NCBI GenBank assembly: GCA_016744575.1
Contig: JADGEC010000009.1
Coordinates: forward strand, 1 to 51,788
Source: Sulfurimonadaceae bacterium
GTDB lineage: Bacteria; Campylobacterota; Campylobacteria; Campylobacterales; Sulfurimonadaceae
Reading direction: 5' to 3'
DNA length: 51,788 nt
Shown: positions 15,407 through 24,367 of the stretch, in pieces
How the letters are laid out: each line of letters opens with the position of its first letter
Position numbering within the stretch: position 1 is the stretch's first letter
Position numbers and translations under genes: made by a program
The notes under the pieces: generated by a model
What the model saw: only the letters and a program-made list of their open reading frames with translations
What the model was told of the DNA's origin: nothing
Database searches by the model: none

Positions 15407-16314
15407 CCCAGAGTCTGCATAGCTGGGGGGAGCGTTATCTTTACGCACCAGATCGGTATCAGCGTCTTATCTCACTGCTCTTACTGCCGTTAAGCTGGCT
15501 CTATTGTGCACTAATGTACTGGCGATTTCATCTAAAAAAACCGCTTGCACAAGGTGTCGCAGTCGTAAGTGTAGGTAACCTGACGGTAGGTGGAAGCGGA
15601 AAGACCCCACTGGTAAGTGCCTTAGCGGGCCGTTATACAGATGCAGCTATCGTCTTACGTGGTTATGGTCGTCACAGTAAGGGTATGGCGGTAGTCTCTG
15701 ATGGTGAGACTATCTTGTGTGATGTACGCTGCAGCGGTGACGAAGCAATGATCTATGCCCAAAGTGTTCAAGGTGTCGTGGTGATCGTCAGTGAAGAGCG
15801 TGAAGCGGGTATCGAACAGGCAAAGAAGATGGGTCGTAGTGTCATCTTCCTCGATGATGGATACAGTAAACATCAAATAGAGAAGCTTGATCTGCTCATC
15901 GATGTGAAGACAAGAAGCCATGCCTGTCTGCCATCAGGCCCTTACCGAGAGCGTCTGTGGCAGGGAAAAGAAGCATTGACCCTTACAGAGGAGAGAGACT
16001 TCTTTCGACGTGTCACGGTAAAAGATGCTACTGAGCGTATGGTCTTGGTAACAGCTATCGCCAGACCGAAGCGGCTGGATGATTTTTTACCAGCAGTAGC
16101 AGAGAAACACTACTTTCCAGACCATCACTTCTTTAGTAAAGAGGAGTTAGAGACCATTCTCGCCAAGAGTGGTGGGACTTCACTATTAGTGACGTTTAAA
16201 GACCAGGTCAAGATGGAGACGTTTGGACTACCTTTATCACTACTGGACCTTGAACTTGAAGTGAGTGAGACATTGTTAGATAAAATAGATAGATACGTGG
16301 AGAGACATAGATGA
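15403..16314 (+). CDS. lpxK: Tetraacyldisaccharide 4'-kinase
   Basis: Phosphorylates the 4' position of the lipid A disaccharide at the inner membrane. An N-terminal hydrophobic segment (LLLLPLSWLYCALMY) anchors it, followed by the P-loop VGNLTVGGSGKTPLV and LDDGYSKHQIE, as in the family. 303 aa. The start is a TTG overlapping the upstream TGA (TTGA), a likely coupled start; no clear ribosome site is visible. The stop overlaps argB by ATGA. Confidence 0.94.
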   Translation: MTQSLHSWGERYLYAPDRYQRLISLLLLPLSWLYCALMYWRFHLKKPLAQGVAVVSVGNLTVGGSGKTPLVSALAGRYTDAAIVLRGYGRHSKGMAVVSDGETILCDVRCSGDEAMIYAQSVQGVVVIVSEEREAGIEQAKKMGRSVIFLDDGYSKHQIEKLDLLIDVKTRSHACLPSGPYRERLWQGKEALTLTEERDFFRRVTVKDATERMVLVTAIARPKRLDDFLPAVAEKHYFPDHHFFSKEELETILAKSGGTSLLVTFKDQVKMETFGLPLSLLDLELEVSETLLDKIDRYVERHR

Positions 16315-17162
16315 AAAAAAAGATGGATCAGGTCAAGGTACTCCTTGATGCCCTTCCTTATATTAAAAAATTCGCAAATCAGATATTTGTCATCAAATAT
16401 GGTGGATCGGCGCAGATAAACCCCAAACTTAAAGAGAAGTTTGCACAGGATATCCTACTGATGTACCTTGTCGGGATCAAACCGGTCATCGTTCATGGTG
16501 GTGGCAACAAGATCAGTGGACTTCTGGAGCAACTGGAGATAGAGAGTAAGTTCGTAGATGGTCTGCGTGTCACAGATGATAAGGCGATGGAAGTCGTGGA
16601 GATGGTCCTTTCGGGAAGTATCAACAATGAGATAACCTCGCTTCTCAATCAGCACGGTGCCAAAGCACTTGGGGTCAGTGGTAAAGATGCCAACTTCATA
16701 ACAGCAAAACCTATAGACAGTGAGAAATATGGCCTGGTCGGTAATATCACCAAAGTCGATAAAAGTGTCATAGAGAACCTTATAGCTGAAAAGTTCATCC
16801 CTGTGATAGCTCCTATCGCTTCGGGTGATGAGATGAACCATCCAGGCTTTAATATCAACGCAGACCTGGCAGCAAGTAAGATCGCAGCTAGTATCGGTGC
16901 CCAAAAGATAATCTTTATGACAGATACCCCGGGTGTGATGGACAAGGAGAAAAACTTCTTCTCGACTCTGCGTGAAGAGGAGATCATCGCGCTTAAAGAA
17001 GACGGTGTGATAGCTGGAGGTATGATACCAAAAGTAGATGCCTGCATGGAAGCGATAGATGCCGGTGTCGAAAAGGCACACATCATCGATGGCCGGGTCG
17101 AACATGCACTGCTTCTGGAAGTCTTTACCAGCGAGGGTGTAGGGACTGTCATCAAAAAATAG
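16311..17162 (+). CDS. argB: N-acetylglutamate kinase
   Basis: Second step of arginine synthesis, phosphorylating N-acetylglutamate. The family signature is intact: KYGGSAQ (substrate-site lysine Lys29), HGGGNK at 62-67, NINADLAASKIA, MTDTPGVMD and IAGGMIPK. 283 aa is normal. Overlaps lpxK by ATGA and is followed after six bases by cutA. A second, degenerate copy lies about 3.2 kb downstream at 20334. Confidence 0.96.
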   Translation: MKKKMDQVKVLLDALPYIKKFANQIFVIKYGGSAQINPKLKEKFAQDILLMYLVGIKPVIVHGGGNKISGLLEQLEIESKFVDGLRVTDDKAMEVVEMVLSGSINNEITSLLNQHGAKALGVSGKDANFITAKPIDSEKYGLVGNITKVDKSVIENLIAEKFIPVIAPIASGDEMNHPGFNINADLAASKIAASIGAQKIIFMTDTPGVMDKEKNFFSTLREEEIIALKEDGVIAGGMIPKVDACMEAIDAGVEKAHIIDGRVEHALLLEVFTSEGVGTVIKK

Positions 17163-17167
17163 GAAGA

Positions 17168-17527
17168 GTGATGCCTGATACAGATGCCCTGATAGTCTCC
17201 TGCACAGTCCCTGACGCTTCAGTCGGCAGAGGTATCGCGAGGCGTATCGTCAAAGAAGGCCTGTGTGCCTGTGTCAACCAGATCCCTTCAGTGACCTCTT
17301 ACTACCTATATGAAGGAGAGTTCAATGAAGATACTGAAGAACTGCTTATCATAAAGAGTGACAGTGCACACTTTGAGAGTCTACAGGCCCGTATTACTGA
17401 ACTCCATCCCTACGATGTTCCTGAGATCATTGCAACAGCCGTCATCGCTGGAAATAAAGCCTATATGCAATGGCTTGACACCTCTATGCTTTTAGATAAA
17501 AAATCATCGAGCATGAAAAAAGGGTAA
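17168..17527 (+). CDS. cutA: CutA-type divalent ion tolerance protein
   Basis: Small trimeric protein linked to copper and divalent-metal tolerance. The sequence shows the CutA core: VSCTVPDASVGRGIARRIV, GLCACVNQIPSVTSYYLYEG and ELHPYDVPEIIA. 119 aa is usual. The ATG is five bases after the argB stop, with AGGAAGAG covering the junction. It precedes the response regulator gene by five bases. Confidence 0.93.
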   Translation: MMPDTDALIVSCTVPDASVGRGIARRIVKEGLCACVNQIPSVTSYYLYEGEFNEDTEELLIIKSDSAHFESLQARITELHPYDVPEIIATAVIAGNKAYMQWLDTSMLLDKKSSSMKKG

Positions 17528-17532
17528 ATATT

Positions 17533-18246
17533 ATGATCGATCATAAAGAGTTTGCCAAAAAGATGAAAGCGTATACGGTCTTGTATGTCGAAGATGATAT
17601 CGAAGTACGTCAGTATATGACTGAGTTTCTGAGGCGCTACTGTAAAGCGGTCTATGCGACTGATAATGCGGCTACTGGACTGACACTTTATAAAGAGCAT
17701 CGACCCGATATTCTCCTACTTGATATCAATCTTCCCGGGATGAGTGGCATAGATCTGGCCGCATCGATCCGTGAGAGTGATCCGCTTACACGCATTATCA
17801 TGTCCACGGCATATACGGACAAGGAGTTCATGCTCAAAGCCGTAGAACTTGGATTGACACGTTATCTGGTCAAACCTGTCACCAGTGAAGATATCTTTGC
17901 AGCTTTTGAGAAGTGTATGATAGAGCTTGTCGAACTGGCACCAAAATATAGTGAAGTGGACCTCGGAGAGGCTTTTGTCTACAACAAAAAACTAAAGTCA
18001 CTTTTAAAAGATGGTGTGACGATGGCCTTGCGAAAAAAAGAGACCGATCTTTTGGAGTTTTTCATCGATCGTCCCAATGAGGTCGTCACTTATGCACTAC
18101 TGGAGACAGCCATCTGGAATGACCAGGTGATGACGAGTGATGCTATTCGTTCTCAGATCAAAAACCTTCGAAAAAAGATACATCATAAAATCTTGAAAAA
18201 TGTAAGCGGTGTCGGTTATAGACTTTATCAGAAGAGTGATATATGA
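17533..18246 (+). CDS. OmpR-type response regulator
   Basis: DNA-binding response regulator, 237 aa. The receiver domain has the acid pair Asp21-Asp22, phospho-acceptor Asp64 (LLLDINLPGMSG), the switch STAYTD at 91-96 and Lys114. The second half is a winged-helix domain (about 145-235) ending with the typical SVVSGVGYRL-like end, here NVSGVGYRLYQ. Its stop overlaps the start of the adjacent histidine kinase (ATGA), so the two are a pair. Target genes are unknown. Confidence 0.93.
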   Translation: MIDHKEFAKKMKAYTVLYVEDDIEVRQYMTEFLRRYCKAVYATDNAATGLTLYKEHRPDILLLDINLPGMSGIDLAASIRESDPLTRIIMSTAYTDKEFMLKAVELGLTRYLVKPVTSEDIFAAFEKCMIELVELAPKYSEVDLGEAFVYNKKLKSLLKDGVTMALRKKETDLLEFFIDRPNEVVTYALLETAIWNDQVMTSDAIRSQIKNLRKKIHHKILKNVSGVGYRLYQKSDI

Positions 18247-20132
18247 TCAGTCTAAAGAAGATCGCCCACAAGAAAGCATTTGATATCGATCATAAAGCGT
18301 CGTTAAAAGATGCGATGGCTCTGATGCAAAAAAACAAGAACGGATGCATAGTCTTGCTAAACGACAAGACCCCGGTCGCCATACTTACTGAGAGTGATAT
18401 TGTCAACTCTCTTTCAGGTACTATCGATCTGACTACTGACGCATATAGATATGCGACTACGACCGTGATAACGACCAACGAAAACAGACCGATAGATTTT
18501 GCTTTTGATTTTTTGAGCGGTCATGATATACGCCGTATCATCCTTGTCGATGACGATCGGCGTTATGCTGGTATTGTCTTACAAGAGGACCTTTTTGACT
18601 ATCTTGAAGAGGATGTCTATAAAGTCGATCTGAAGATATCGCATATCATCAAGAGTAATCAGCAGATCACGACTGTCAATGAGAACGCTTCGATAGATGA
18701 AGCATTGATCTTGATGCAGATGCATCATATAGGATCGATCATCGTAGTCGATGAGATGGCTCACGTCGGCATACTCACAGAGAAGGATGTCCTGAACCTG
18801 ACCTATCAGGAGATCGATACAAAAGAGATCGTCGCTGAGCATATGTCAAAACCTGTGATCAGTGTCGATAAAGAGATGCTTGTCGCTGACGTCATCGAAC
18901 TGATGCGCATAAGAAAGATAAGACGTATAGTCGTTACTGGGACAGGGAACAGGATGGTCGCACTTTTGACCAATAGAGACATCCTTAAACACATCAAAGG
19001 CAACTATACTCGGATATTGCAGATCAAGATCAAACATGCACAGGAGATAATGGACTATCTACCTGAGGCGATCATCGAGGTCTTTGATGCAGAGGGACAC
19101 CAGGTCATCCATTGGATGAACCTTAAAGCCAAAAATATATTCGGTAAGCAGCTGATCGACAAAGGCCTTGACACTATCTTCTCAAGACAGGACTGGAGTG
19201 TGATAAGTACGCATTTTCAAAGTGCCACCTCTATCGTGAACAAGATGGTCCATATTGGCGATGCAGCATTTGAGGTATCGGGCACTTCATCAAAAAACCT
19301 TAATAGCACCTACATCAAACTCATCTTTAAAGATGTGACAAAACACGAAAATACCAAGCTCAGGCTACAACAGGAGATCGATAAGGAGATCGAGAAGCGC
19401 CTCGAGAACGAATACCTGCTGATGCAACAGTCTAAACTTGCTACGATGGGGGAGATGATAGGGCATATCGCCCATCAATGGAGACAGCCTTTGGCACAGA
19501 TCGGAGGGGTCTTTATGAACCTGGAGTCTGCCTATGCTTTTGACGAGTTGTCTGAGAAGTATTTTAAAGCAAAGGTAAAGAGCGGAAATGAACTGTTAAA
19601 ACATATGTCGAACACTATCGACGACTTTCGCCACTTCTTTGAACCAAATCGTGCTAAAGAGATCTTCGACCTTAGCCAATATGTCCAAAATGCGATCAAT
19701 ATCATCCAGGCTTCACTGACCTACTATCATATAGAAGTGAGGTTCACAGCACCTTCAGAAGCGGTCACTATCTCTGGTTATCCCAGTGAGTTTGCCCAGG
19801 TCATCTTGAACCTACTTGACAATGCCAAAGACATCTTACTGGAGAATGCGATCGCAGCACCTTGGATCTCGATCGAGATAGTCGAAAAAGATGATGTTGT
19901 CTACATCAATGTCGAAGACAATGGTGGAGGTATCGATGAGAGTATCATCGATAAGATCTTTGACATCTATTTTACGACTAAAGATCGTGAGCAGGGGACA
20001 GGTCTGGGTCTGTATATGTCCAGACTCATCATCGAAAGCAAGATCCATGGGAAGATCGAAGCTAAAAATGGTCGTACTGGCGCTATCTTTATGATCGAGA
20101 TAGACCGAATAGCTCGTGAAAGCTCATCATAA
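18243..20132 (+). CDS. Cytoplasmic histidine kinase with four CBS domains and a PAS-like region
   Basis: 629 aa, no signal peptide or membrane helix. Residues about 1-125 and 125-253 are two tandem CBS pairs, recognisable from repeated units such as HHIGSIIVVDE...VGILTEKDVL and IRRIVVTG...VALLTNRDIL. A PAS-like region follows (about 260-345), a coiled coil (365-400), the phospho-acceptor box GEMIGHIAHQWRQPL with His411, and an HATPase domain with NLLDNAKD, NGGGIDES and GTGLGLYMS. CBS pairs commonly bind AMP, ADP, ATP or related nucleotides, so a cytoplasmic energy-state sensor is plausible but inferred. Overlaps its response regulator by four bases. Confidence 0.92.
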   Translation: MISLKKIAHKKAFDIDHKASLKDAMALMQKNKNGCIVLLNDKTPVAILTESDIVNSLSGTIDLTTDAYRYATTTVITTNENRPIDFAFDFLSGHDIRRIILVDDDRRYAGIVLQEDLFDYLEEDVYKVDLKISHIIKSNQQITTVNENASIDEALILMQMHHIGSIIVVDEMAHVGILTEKDVLNLTYQEIDTKEIVAEHMSKPVISVDKEMLVADVIELMRIRKIRRIVVTGTGNRMVALLTNRDILKHIKGNYTRILQIKIKHAQEIMDYLPEAIIEVFDAEGHQVIHWMNLKAKNIFGKQLIDKGLDTIFSRQDWSVISTHFQSATSIVNKMVHIGDAAFEVSGTSSKNLNSTYIKLIFKDVTKHENTKLRLQQEIDKEIEKRLENEYLLMQQSKLATMGEMIGHIAHQWRQPLAQIGGVFMNLESAYAFDELSEKYFKAKVKSGNELLKHMSNTIDDFRHFFEPNRAKEIFDLSQYVQNAINIIQASLTYYHIEVRFTAPSEAVTISGYPSEFAQVILNLLDNAKDILLENAIAAPWISIEIVEKDDVVYINVEDNGGGIDESIIDKIFDIYFTTKDREQGTGLGLYMSRLIIESKIHGKIEAKNGRTGAIFMIEIDRIARESSS

Positions 20133-20205
20133 GGGCATATGCGTACTTCTGAAAAAATTCCACAAATAATCCATCTTTATTTGCTACCATATAGGCTGGA
20201 TTCAT
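20089..20205 (-). CDS. Candidate 38-aa small protein with strong ribosome site
   Basis: On the minus strand an ATG at 20205 is preceded, with a five-base gap, by a full AGGAGGA. The 38-codon frame reads MNPAYMVANKDGLFVEFFQ and continues with an aromatic, alanine/methionine-rich end. Its 3' part overlaps the histidine-kinase 3' end in antisense by 44 bases. The ribosome site is among the best on either strand of this region, which is why I list it. There is no family match and the gene may still be spurious. Confidence 0.35.
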   Translation of the reverse strand: MNPAYMVANKDGLFVEFFQKYAYALMMSFHELFGLSRS

Positions 20206-20333
20206 AACATTCCTCCTGATCCATGGAGTGTTTACGGACGGTGATGTCATGCAACTGCATCTGTCGTACGTGGACCTCCCCTTGCTAGTGACGATAGACA
20301 ACTCGATATCCCATACATCTCTTAAGGACATCA

Positions 20334-21175
20334 TTGAAACAAAAGATCCAACAGGTAAAGATACTTCTTGACGCCTTACCCTATATAAAAAAATATACTA
20401 ATGCCATCTTCGTCATAAAGTTTGGCGGTTCTGCTCTACTCGATCCCACTTTGAAAGCGAAGTTCGCAGAGGACATCTTATTGATGTACCTGATGGGGAT
20501 CAAACCTGTCATCGTCCATGGCGGTAGTAAGAAGATCAGTGCGATGCTGGAGAGATTACAAATAGAGACTGAGTTCATAGACGGTCTCAGAGTGACGGAT
20601 GAGCGCGTGATGGAGGTCGTGGAGATGGTGCTTTCAGGTAACATCAACAAAGAGATCACAACACTACTGAACCATCATGGGGCTAAAGCACTGGGAATCA
20701 GCGGTAAAGATGCCGATCTCATCACAGCACGCCCGAGAGAGAAAGAGAAGTATGGTCTAGTCGGAGATATCATAGGTGTCGATGATACGGTCATCAAGAA
20801 CCTCATAGCAGAGAAGTTTATCCCGGTCATCGCACCTATCGCTACGAGTGACGAGATCAATCATCCCGGTTATAACATCAATGCTGATTGTGCTGCGAGT
20901 CAGATCGCGGCGAGACTGGGAGCCAGAAAGATAATCTTTATGACTGATGCACCTGGTGTCATGGACAAAGAGAAGCAGCACTGGATGAAGAAGAGATAAT
21001 CGCGCTTAAAGAGGATGAGATGATCGCAAGAGAGATGATCCCAAAGATCGATGCCAGTCTTAATGCCGTCAAAGAGGGTGTGCCAAAAGCTCATATCATC
21101 GATGGACGAGTAGAGCATGCCCTGTTACTGGAAATATTTACCAGTGAGGGTGTAGGTACGATGATAAAAAGATAG
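20334..21175 (+). pseudogene. Degenerate argB paralogue (frameshifted N-acetylglutamate kinase)
   Basis: A second copy of argB, close to the 16311 gene along its whole length. The reading frame from a TTG at 20334 ends at 20999 after MDKEKQ; the remaining C-terminus ([10 protein letters not shown] ... GVGTMIKR) continues in another frame to 21175. Against argB, about ten bases are missing near 20965-20977. Active-site residues have also changed: HGGGNK is now HGGSKK, and IAGGMIPK is now IAREMIPK. Both changes hit glycines of ligand-binding loops, so even an unbroken product would probably be inactive as N-acetylglutamate kinase. Most of the protein is still highly conserved, so decay is recent or the truncated product is retained. 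Confidence 0.82.
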
Positions 21176-21184
21176 GAGACGAGG

Positions 21185-21436
21185 ATGAGTGAAAGAGGTC
21201 AGGGCGCGGTTACGCTTGAACAGTGTGAAGCTGTCATCGATGAGGGGCTTGAGGCTTTTGAGAAAGTGAGACGTGCCCTACAGGTCATCGAAGAGATGAA
21301 GCTCTATCCAAAGAAGTACCATGACTTGGAAGCGTATTGTGATGACAATTGGGAACTCCCTATAGGAGTCCATGATCTCTATGTAGCTCCCAAAGTGCAT
21401 GTTAGCAAGATACTCTCTATGCCGATCACAAGATAG
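21185..21436 (+). CDS. Hypothetical protein, 83 aa, with an LY-x-EYC-W-like motif
   Basis: AGGAG lies six bases before the ATG. The protein is helical in its first half, with KVRRALQVIEEMKLYPKKY followed by HDLEAYCDDNWEL. This resembles a motif (about IGxALxxIRxxxLYRxxYxTFEEYCxERW) seen in small proteins of mobile elements and phage-like regions. The likeness is by memory only. It sits between the argB pseudogene and the phosphagen kinase gene, ten bases after the former. Confidence 0.5.
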   Translation: MSERGQGAVTLEQCEAVIDEGLEAFEKVRRALQVIEEMKLYPKKYHDLEAYCDDNWELPIGVHDLYVAPKVHVSKILSMPITR

Positions 21437-21511
21437 AGTGACATGCGCGAAATCCACATATATTCCATTTAAATGAGTTATGATCTCGGTCACACAATAC
21501 AAGGGATAAAG

Positions 21512-22552
21512 ATGAACGACAAAAACGAATTTCCGGAACTACCTGCTGATTGTAAGTCACAGTTATGTAAACATCTGAGCAAAGAACTCTTTGAGACACT
21601 CAAAGACAAAGAGACCAGTAACGGTTTCACATTGCGACAAGCGATAAACTCTGGCGTAGAGAACATCGACAGTGGTATCGGTGTCTATGCGGGTGATGAA
21701 GAGTCTTACACGACTTTTTCCGGACTATTCGACCCCATCATCGAAGAGTATCACGGTTTTTCCAAAGAGGACAAGCATAAGAGTAATCTGGACCCGGCTG
21801 ACCTAAATGCACCTAATCCCGATCCTGATGGAGACTTCATCGTCTCTACACGGATCCGTGTCGGTCGTAATGTCGCTGACCTTCCTCTTGGGCCGGCGAT
21901 CTCCCGTGATCAGCGTAACGACATCGAACATCAGGTCTCCGGAGCGCTAAATGGCCTTACAGGCAGCCTTGCCGGTACATATTTTCCACTTCAGGGGATG
22001 AGTGAGGCAGACAGTACGCAGCTTATCGCTGATCACTTCCTTTTTAAAGCAGGCGACCGTTTTCTTGAAGCAGCCGGACTGAACCGCGACTGGCCGGAAG
22101 GCCGTGGTATCTATCACAATGATGAGAAGACCTTTCTTGTATGGGTCAACGAGGAAGATCAGCTTCGTATTATCTCCATGCAGATGGGTGGGGACATCAA
22201 AGAGGTCTTCACACGTCTCTCAAATGCCATTAGTGAGATCGAGCAGCAGGTCCCATTCTCTTATACCGAGCACCTTGGTTACCTTACGAGTTGTCCTACA
22301 AATCTTGGGACAGCGATGCGCGCCAGTGTCCACATCGCTCTTCCTAAGTTAGCTGCTGACATGGAGGTGTTCGAAAAGATCGCTGATCAGTACCATCTGC
22401 AGATCAGAGGTATTCATGGTGAGCACTCTGAGAGTGAAGGCGGAGTCTATGATATCAGTAATCGTAGAAGACTGGGCGTGACTGAAGTCGAGTGTGTTCA
22501 GGATATGTATGATGGGGTAGTCGCCATGATCGCAGCTGAGAAAGCTCTCTGA
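21512..22552 (+). CDS. Phosphagen (arginine) kinase, full-length two-domain form
   Basis: ATP:guanidino phosphotransferase of 346 aa. The N-terminal domain has the arginine-kinase loop SGIGVYAGDEESYTTF (54-69) followed by LFDPIIEEYHGF. The catalytic domain shows STRIRVGRN with Arg114/Arg116, WVNEEDQLRIISMQMGG with Glu214/Glu215 and Arg219, the reactive CPTNLGT with Cys261, Arg270, and RGIHGEHSE with Arg299. Every catalytic landmark seems present. Presence of the N-terminal domain separates it from the protein kinase McsB. Phosphoarginine serves as an ATP buffer. I start at 21512 (AAGGG six bases upstream), not at 21473. A TATGAT at 21479-21484 may be its own -10 box. Rare in bacteria; probably acquired. 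Confidence 0.92.
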   Translation: MNDKNEFPELPADCKSQLCKHLSKELFETLKDKETSNGFTLRQAINSGVENIDSGIGVYAGDEESYTTFSGLFDPIIEEYHGFSKEDKHKSNLDPADLNAPNPDPDGDFIVSTRIRVGRNVADLPLGPAISRDQRNDIEHQVSGALNGLTGSLAGTYFPLQGMSEADSTQLIADHFLFKAGDRFLEAAGLNRDWPEGRGIYHNDEKTFLVWVNEEDQLRIISMQMGGDIKEVFTRLSNAISEIEQQVPFSYTEHLGYLTSCPTNLGTAMRASVHIALPKLAADMEVFEKIADQYHLQIRGIHGEHSESEGGVYDISNRRRLGVTEVECVQDMYDGVVAMIAAEKAL

Positions 22553-22644: not shown

Positions 22645-23200
22645 AAGGCATACACACAAGAGTTTATAGATCCAACGATACAGTTATCATTGAATAGTAA
22701 AAAGTCAACAATGAAGATCGCTAAAGAGTTGAGTATGAGTAACAAAACGTTGTAAGTATATTTGTGTGATTATTAAAAAGTACATAATTTTGATAGCCCA
22801 ACTGCAGACTTCTCTAAGACTACTTATCCAAAGAGTCTCTTGAAGAAGAAAATCGCCATTTGGATAAAGAGCTGCTCATGGTTAAGAAAGAGCGAGAGAT
22901 CTTAAAAAAGTAACGGTCCACTTCACAAAAGAAGTTCGCTGAAGTATAGTTGGATATAAGAGTTTCGCATTGCGATGAAGTGCCAGCTAGTAGGCAACTC
23001 ACGATTGTATTTGTTGACCTTGAAGAGAAGTTGTCATGAAATGAAATGTGTATTCTGATAGTTCGTATTCTTTGCCCGTAATAGTGTTGACAGATTAAGA
23101 TGTTATGGGAAGGGGGCTTTCAATGAGAATGAGATACTAGTCATTACTCTGATCCAGGGTGCCATAGAAAAGAAGTCTTCTCAAAGGCTAATAAGACATA
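22645..23200 (+). mobile_element. Decayed IS3-family transposase remnant
   Basis: Pieces of both IS3 frames can be read through stops and frameshifts. At 22645-22755: KAYTQEFIDPTIQLSL and KIAKELSMSNKTL, like the OrfA helix-turn-helix. At 22818-22910: SLEEENRHLDKELL and KKEREILKK, the OrfA leucine zipper ending. At about 22955-23030: WI-EFRIAMKCQLVGNSRLY, like the start of OrfB. At 23142: HYSDPG, like the catalytic-domain HSDQG motif. Much of OrfB is gone and no terminal repeats were found. This covers the 665-base stretch between 22552 and 23218, which holds no intact gene. Confidence 0.65.
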
Positions 23201-24298: not shown

Positions 24299-24367
24299 AA
24301 ATGATCGACTGTCTGGCTATCGGTTTTCACCTTTCTCCTTTCCCGATAGCCAGACAGTCGATCATTT
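24299..24367. repeat. Perfect 25-bp inverted repeat before a small membrane protein
   Basis: The arms 24299-24323 and 24343-24367 are perfect complements over 25 bases, with a 19-base pyrimidine-rich loop. No mismatch is present. The right arm ends 23 bases before the ATG at 24391. The loop contains CTCCT, complementary to the AGGAG of the ribosome site at 24377-24382. This may be an RNA hairpin in the 5' leader, or the folded core of a small mobile repeat. Confidence 0.9.

Follow-up and report, generated by a model that had tools for sequence, protein, structure and literature searches.

The window, by which we mean the whole stretch of 51,788 nucleotides that was analyzed, carries on its forward strand a series of genes leading up to one for an arginine kinase (AK; ATP:guanido phosphotransferase) at positions 21512..22552, with a product of 346 aa. 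Upstream of AK, and all on the same strand, are the following: argB1 (16311..17162), an intact N-acetylglutamate kinase (NAGK) gene identified by TIGR00761; a cutA-like gene (CutA1; 17168..17527); a gene for an OmpR-type response regulator (RR) with Response_reg and Trans_reg_C domains (17533..18246); a gene for a histidine kinase (HK) with four N-terminal CBS domains and a HATPase_c domain in Pfam (18243..20132), which overlaps the RR gene by 4 nt; a pseudogene of an AK-linked NAGK, argB2 (20334..21175), frameshifted by a 10-nt deletion; and the gene for an 83-aa small helical protein, which we refer to as S5 (21185..21436). Between the HK gene and the argB2 pseudogene there are ~200 bp without a convincing gene (20089-20334), which may be what is left of the beginning of argB2 or may contain an internal promoter. 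Downstream of AK, also on the forward strand, a possible degraded remnant of an IS3-like orfA was read by eye in three frames at about 22650..22960; its match to PF01527 (E=0.054) is sub-threshold and lends weak support to the IS remnant that a first-pass annotation had reported next to AK. A gene-poor stretch further along the window has an inverted repeat (24299-24367), with perfectly matching arms of 25 nt and a loop of 19 nt, that would form a strong hairpin.

The AK open reading frame has no internal stops, and an alternative ATG at 21473 would extend the product to 359 aa. Both domains of the enzymes of EC 2.7.3.3 were identified in it far above the Pfam cut-offs, the N-terminal phosphagen-kinase domain (PF02807, E=2.7e-28) and the C-terminal catalytic domain (PF00217, E=9.5e-78), and its best matches in the PDB (phmmer) were the arginine kinases of an anemone (4rf6, E=2.4e-261) and a shrimp (4bg4, 4e-132). 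Consistent with these matches, all of the residues expected of EC 2.7.3.3 (R124, R126, E225, R229, C271, R280, R309 and E314 of the shrimp enzyme) are conserved, as R114, R116, E215, R219, C261, R270, R299 and E304, respectively, and H185 is present as H175. The first-pass annotation, which had recognized a full-length arginine kinase in a Campylobacterota-like genome, is thereby borne out, as are its arginine and cysteine landmarks (Arg114, Arg116, Cys261, Arg270 and Arg299) and its N-terminal guanidine-specificity loop (residues 54-59); its catalytic Glu pair, given as 214/215, is revised here to Glu215/Glu304, with E214 aligning to the neighboring E224. Judged by its domains and catalytic residues, the window gene is a genuine, intact arginine kinase. 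It is the sole AK copy in a genome that is 100% complete in 228 contigs and it is under strong purifying selection, having a dN of 0.045 and a dS of 0.786 relative to the sibling species, and the resulting dN/dS of ~0.06 indicates that the gene is in use.

Two other functions for this enzyme were considered. The first, that it is a McsB-type protein-arginine kinase that marks proteins for Clp degradation, draws on the fold that the catalytic domains have in common and on weak scores against the NCBIfam McsB models. However, those scores (80-151 bits) are well below the equivalog cut-offs of 381-679, PF02807 is present, and the McsB chains in the PDB reached only ~100 bits and aligned with the C-terminal catalytic domain only; as such, we agree with the earlier placement of the protein outside McsB and regard a McsB identity as having next to no chance of being correct. 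The second is that the enzyme acts on another guanidino substrate, or phosphorylates free arginine for signaling or nitrogen storage and not for energy buffering. The substrate of the window AK was assigned by sequence, the phosphagen kinases of animals have changed substrate repeatedly, and the link to NAGK would fit arginine or nitrogen storage as well. On the other hand, the guanidine loop (S54-G55-I56-G57-V58-Y59, aligned to residues 63-68 of shrimp AK) differs from that of the shrimp enzyme by V65I and I67V without an indel, the loop and the substrate residues are the same as in true AKs, the creatine, lombricine and glycocyamine kinases in the PDB scored lower than the AKs did, and the adjoining enzyme of arginine synthesis points to arginine. 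We therefore consider a different substrate or role to be very unlikely, and refer to the enzyme as an arginine kinase below.

A comparison of AK loci revealed a recurring gene order, RR - four-CBS HK - argB2 - S5 - AK, in which AK is the last gene of the operon. The core of this cassette, argB2-S5-AK, was found at 14 loci in four families: f1 (the window, L058, L059, L172 and L173), f4 (L235/G587), f6 (L076) and f7 (L003, L004, L005, L150, L152, L157 and L164), with the RR and CBS-HK genes just upstream in most of them. Three of the f7 loci, L003, L004 and L005, were equated with genomes G600, G543 and G611, respectively, by contig number and match position; in L004, where the AK reading frame is long and S5 runs into it, S5 was picked up from the S5 listing. 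Of the 13 loci that were measured, 11 have argB2 and S5 overlapping by 1-4 nt, and in 12 S5 runs up to or into AK; the exception is the window, where 75 nt separate S5 from AK. These overlaps imply a tight translational linkage. Variants of the arrangement were also identified: in L179 (f1) argB2 is coupled to AK and S5 is absent, while in L161, from a fifth family (f9), the same partners are arranged as AK-RR-CBSHK, separated by 23 and 4 nt. In the sibling species the order argB1-cutA-RR-HK-AK is kept, including cutA between argB1 and RR as in the window, and argB2 and S5 have been lost. With argB2 a pseudogene in the window and the sibling retaining only RR-HK-AK of the cassette, we read the cassette as eroding in the window's genus. 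The pseudogene noted in the first-pass annotation is thus real, being an argB paralog with a 10-nt deletion, and it is better described as a decayed operon partner than as the debris of an insertion.

Around four fifths of the campylobacterotal AK loci that were examined are outside of the cassette, and at most AK loci of the order the neighbors are unrelated genes, which indicates that AK can function without these partners. It could therefore be argued that the window holds an ordinary bacterial AK that buffers ATP by itself, and that its neighbors are there by chance or as hitch-hikers on a transferable block. In the loci L074 and L166, HK and RR genes near AK were matched over ~230-250 residues only and were not counted as orthologs. 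Other gene sets were also seen beside AK: in L025 (1613-3318) AK is preceded, at a distance of 15 nt, by an argB from a different lineage, a second argB-AK pairing that we take to be independent, and in L013, L014/L162 and L153, from Poseidonibacter and relatives, a different conserved set of three genes (~326, 410 and 108 aa) precedes AK.

The genes of the cassette were associated with AK across genomes. When the S5 profile was run on the same 399 genomes of the order as the AK search, strong matches were obtained in 10, all of which are AK-positive (hypergeometric 6e-10, before correction for relatedness). S5 is just upstream of AK in the nine loci that were read and in G587, a genome that had been left out of the profile, in which the S5 and AK matches are 44 nt apart and the complete RR-HK-argB2-S5-AK order is present on the contig. 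Four further S5 matches (E 0.002-0.009) were in long unrelated frames and were treated as chance. Among 100 relatives, orthologs of the CBS-HK (E<1e-60) were detected in exactly four genomes (G000, G001, G013 and G055), and these are the genomes that have AK at this locus. A second argB was likewise confined, in those relatives, to cassette genomes (G013, G055 and, as the pseudogene, the window); other apparent double entries were one gene in fragments or a marginal match.

Arginine synthesis is committed at the step catalyzed by NAGK, which arginine normally inhibits. A tree of 56 rows united the AK-linked argBs of f1, f4, f6 and f7 in one clade together with argB1 of the window (support 96/90), with the argB of L025 as the single AK-linked sequence outside it, and the housekeeping argBs of the same genomes were placed elsewhere, mostly with their own families; six genomes that carry both copies allowed a direct comparison of the two. 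This separation marks the AK-linked NAGK as a lineage of its own, one that has moved along with AK. The distance matrices of AK and argB2 were correlated (r=0.53, n=14, p=0.0006). In the six genomes where the two argBs coexist, however, the correlation with AK was almost as high for the housekeeping copy (0.87 vs 0.92), and so this measure of co-evolution is not decisive. In the window genome, argB1 is the only intact NAGK gene that we found, and no argB of the housekeeping lineage was found in it. Either the AK-linked lineage has replaced the housekeeping argB there, or the cassette argB arose as a duplicate in a close relative and spread afterwards; the tree would accommodate both. The argB2 copy of the window has an early stop and no intact reading frame, and conserved residues are altered (HGGG to HGGS and GGMIPK to REMIPK). 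Intact argB2 genes match the NAGK equivalog model, that of L004 scoring 252.5 bits against the TIGR00761 cut-off of 151.3. Arginine-sensitive NAGKs have an N-terminal helix and a C-terminal HIIDGR..HALLLE motif, and both are retained in the intact AK-linked proteins, for which reason these are probably still sensitive to arginine. A loss of arginine feedback in argB2 was also considered, and the sequences gave no sign of it.

In view of these associations, we find it unlikely that AK acts alone amid incidental neighbors. Such a reading does gain from the Sulfurovum AK that, as far as its citation in a review conveys, had already been described, and from exchange of AK across taxa, exemplified by a gammaproteobacterial clade nested among the campylobacterotal AKs. 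Against it are the restriction of S5 to positions beside AK, the distinct argB2 lineage found with AK, the overlapping genes of the operon and the fact that the CBS-HK accompanies AK even where the order is rearranged.

The CBS-HK has a conserved H-box (AHQWRQPL), and no membrane segment was evident in it by inspection. An AF2 model of residues 1-260, which span the CBS sensor, had a pLDDT of 87.8, and the top PDB folds for it were MJ1225, AMP-bound SSO3205 and AMPK gamma, with a TM of ~0.8. A match to the AMPK-gamma fold is expected of any four-CBS protein, and many CBS pairs bind ligands other than adenylates. In the alignment of CBS-HK proteins, the ribose/phosphate motif of adenylate sensors is clear in full in CBS3 and CBS4 only, with T179 and D182 invariant in the former and T243 and D246 nearly invariant in the latter; CBS1 retains part of it (T49) and CBS2 lacks it. 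Together, the predicted fold and the motif suggest that the sensor probably binds adenine nucleotides. Bacterial CBS proteins that sense energy charge are known, such as AcuB (PMC13121692).

S5 belongs to a family of ~72-98 aa proteins (typically ~85 aa), aligned in 13 rows, in which QCE, W and Y are invariant, and it is predicted to fold into three helices (pLDDT 85.6). Searches of Pfam, PHROG and PDB folds gave no convincing match. A YC..W motif raised the suspicion that S5 may be a DNA-binding protein, for which those three collections offered no convincing match in support. From its position between the two enzymes, S5 is likely to be an adaptor or regulator of either the argB2 product (NAGK2) or AK. 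It represents a new protein family, found only directly upstream of arginine kinase.

AK was detected in 31 of 228 genomes in the family and in 52 of the 399 sampled in the order, and its N-terminal domain was found in none of 14 control genomes. In an 88-row tree that included five eukaryotic domains, and whose deep forks had modest support, the campylobacterotal AKs formed one group that excluded the anemone, shrimp and schistosome sequences, and the gammaproteobacterial clade nested among them comprises Psychromonas and relatives. The patchy distribution of AK implies that, within the order, the gene has been exchanged or lost. There is no sign that the window genome acquired it recently: its AK belongs to a campylobacterotal clade and that of the sibling species is 92% identical and in the same syntenic block. 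The first-pass annotation had proposed a likely horizontal origin, citing the IS remnant and the pseudogene; a recent import tied to the IS remnant is not supported by these data, and an insertion of AK together with an IS element was considered and rejected given the synteny with the sibling and the weak evidence for the element. Carriage of AK by phages or plasmids was also considered, and collections of phages, viral contigs and plasmids held no close match, the sole full-length plasmid match being 38% identical. This match is a phosphagen kinase-like gene annotated as 'hypothetical protein' on a plasmid of Candidatus Bandiella woodruffii, a Rickettsiales symbiont of the ciliate Euplotes (L218; NZ_CP110821.1, 55143-56240); it has transposases on both flanks, and a eukaryote is a possible source of it. 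A second AK-like ORF was observed in G640 (L191, 12000-26000 region), in addition to the ordinary AK of that genome; it is 390 aa in length, with ~40% identity, and so strongly diverged that it forms a very long branch in the tree.

Arginine kinase is best known from animals, where spare energy of ATP is stored on arginine. In the model that we favor, AK would catalyze ATP + L-arginine <-> ADP + phosphoarginine and serve as a cytosolic ATP buffer. A shift in the adenylate balance would act through the CBS kinase and the OmpR-type RR to switch the operon, such that AK and an added flux of arginine synthesis through NAGK2 are made together and the phosphoarginine pool is filled, while S5, encoded between the two enzymes and translationally coupled to both, would adjust either NAGK2 or AK. 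We are fairly confident in this model as a whole, that is, of an adenylate-sensing, arginine-supplied phosphoarginine buffer with AK as the effector of the operon. Of its parts, the kinase step is well grounded in the sequence and the operon emerges from the comparison of loci, whereas the arginine substrate, the phosphoarginine pool, nucleotide sensing, regulation and the role of S5 are inferred. More tentatively, and with somewhat less than even expectation, we speculate that the Campylobacterota carry a dedicated phosphagen operon in which an AMPK-gamma-like HK senses adenylate charge and acts via its regulator to co-control AK, a private NAGK and S5 as a new small coupling protein, a counterpart of the link between AMPK and phosphagens in animals. 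To our knowledge, the role of bacterial phosphagen kinases is poorly understood, with a few isolated enzymes having been studied. The conserved operon gives AK a physiological context, an arginine supply and a candidate energy sensor, and yields a regulatory circuit that is directly testable.

Bacterial AKs from Sulfurovum lithotrophicum, Desulfotalea psychrophila, Myxococcus xanthus and Moritella are reviewed in PMC6429109 and are of the same enzyme family by the account of the reviewers. The Sulfurovum enzyme, from the window's own order, was characterized in 2013 (Suzuki et al., as cited in PMC6429109); to the extent that this citation describes it, the window enzyme by itself is a further case of an enzyme known in the order. 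With that publication, and with AK present in 52 of 399 genomes, the first-pass annotation was correct that a bacterial AK exists here and overstated how unusual it is. What is new is the surroundings of AK, a recurring cluster previously unremarked in the literature searched, a body of work that left most subscription journals outside and contained no operon in which AK is combined with a dedicated NAGK, S5 and a two-component system of the CBS kind. Compared by description, the reviewed bacterial AKs differ in that the same literature gave them no CBS-HK/RR, argB2 or S5 partners. Relative to sensors of the AMPK gamma, MJ1225 and AcuB type, the CBS-HK shares the four tandem CBS domains, the predicted fold and the motif in CBS3 and CBS4, but it combines these with a histidine kinase in one protein and is paired with an OmpR-type regulator, and its nucleotide binding is predicted. 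The AKs of animals (shrimp 4bg4 and anemone 4rf6) align at all catalytic residues and the guanidine loop with no change of class, whereas the campylobacterotal AKs are a clade of their own with the animal sequences that were tested outside it. Lastly, argB2 resembles the arginine-sensitive ArgB proteins of Synechococcus (2jj4), P. aeruginosa (2buf) and T. maritima (2bty) in having the full kinase together with the N-terminal helix and the motif at the C terminus, and is distinguished from them as an extra lineage that is translationally coupled to S5 and AK.
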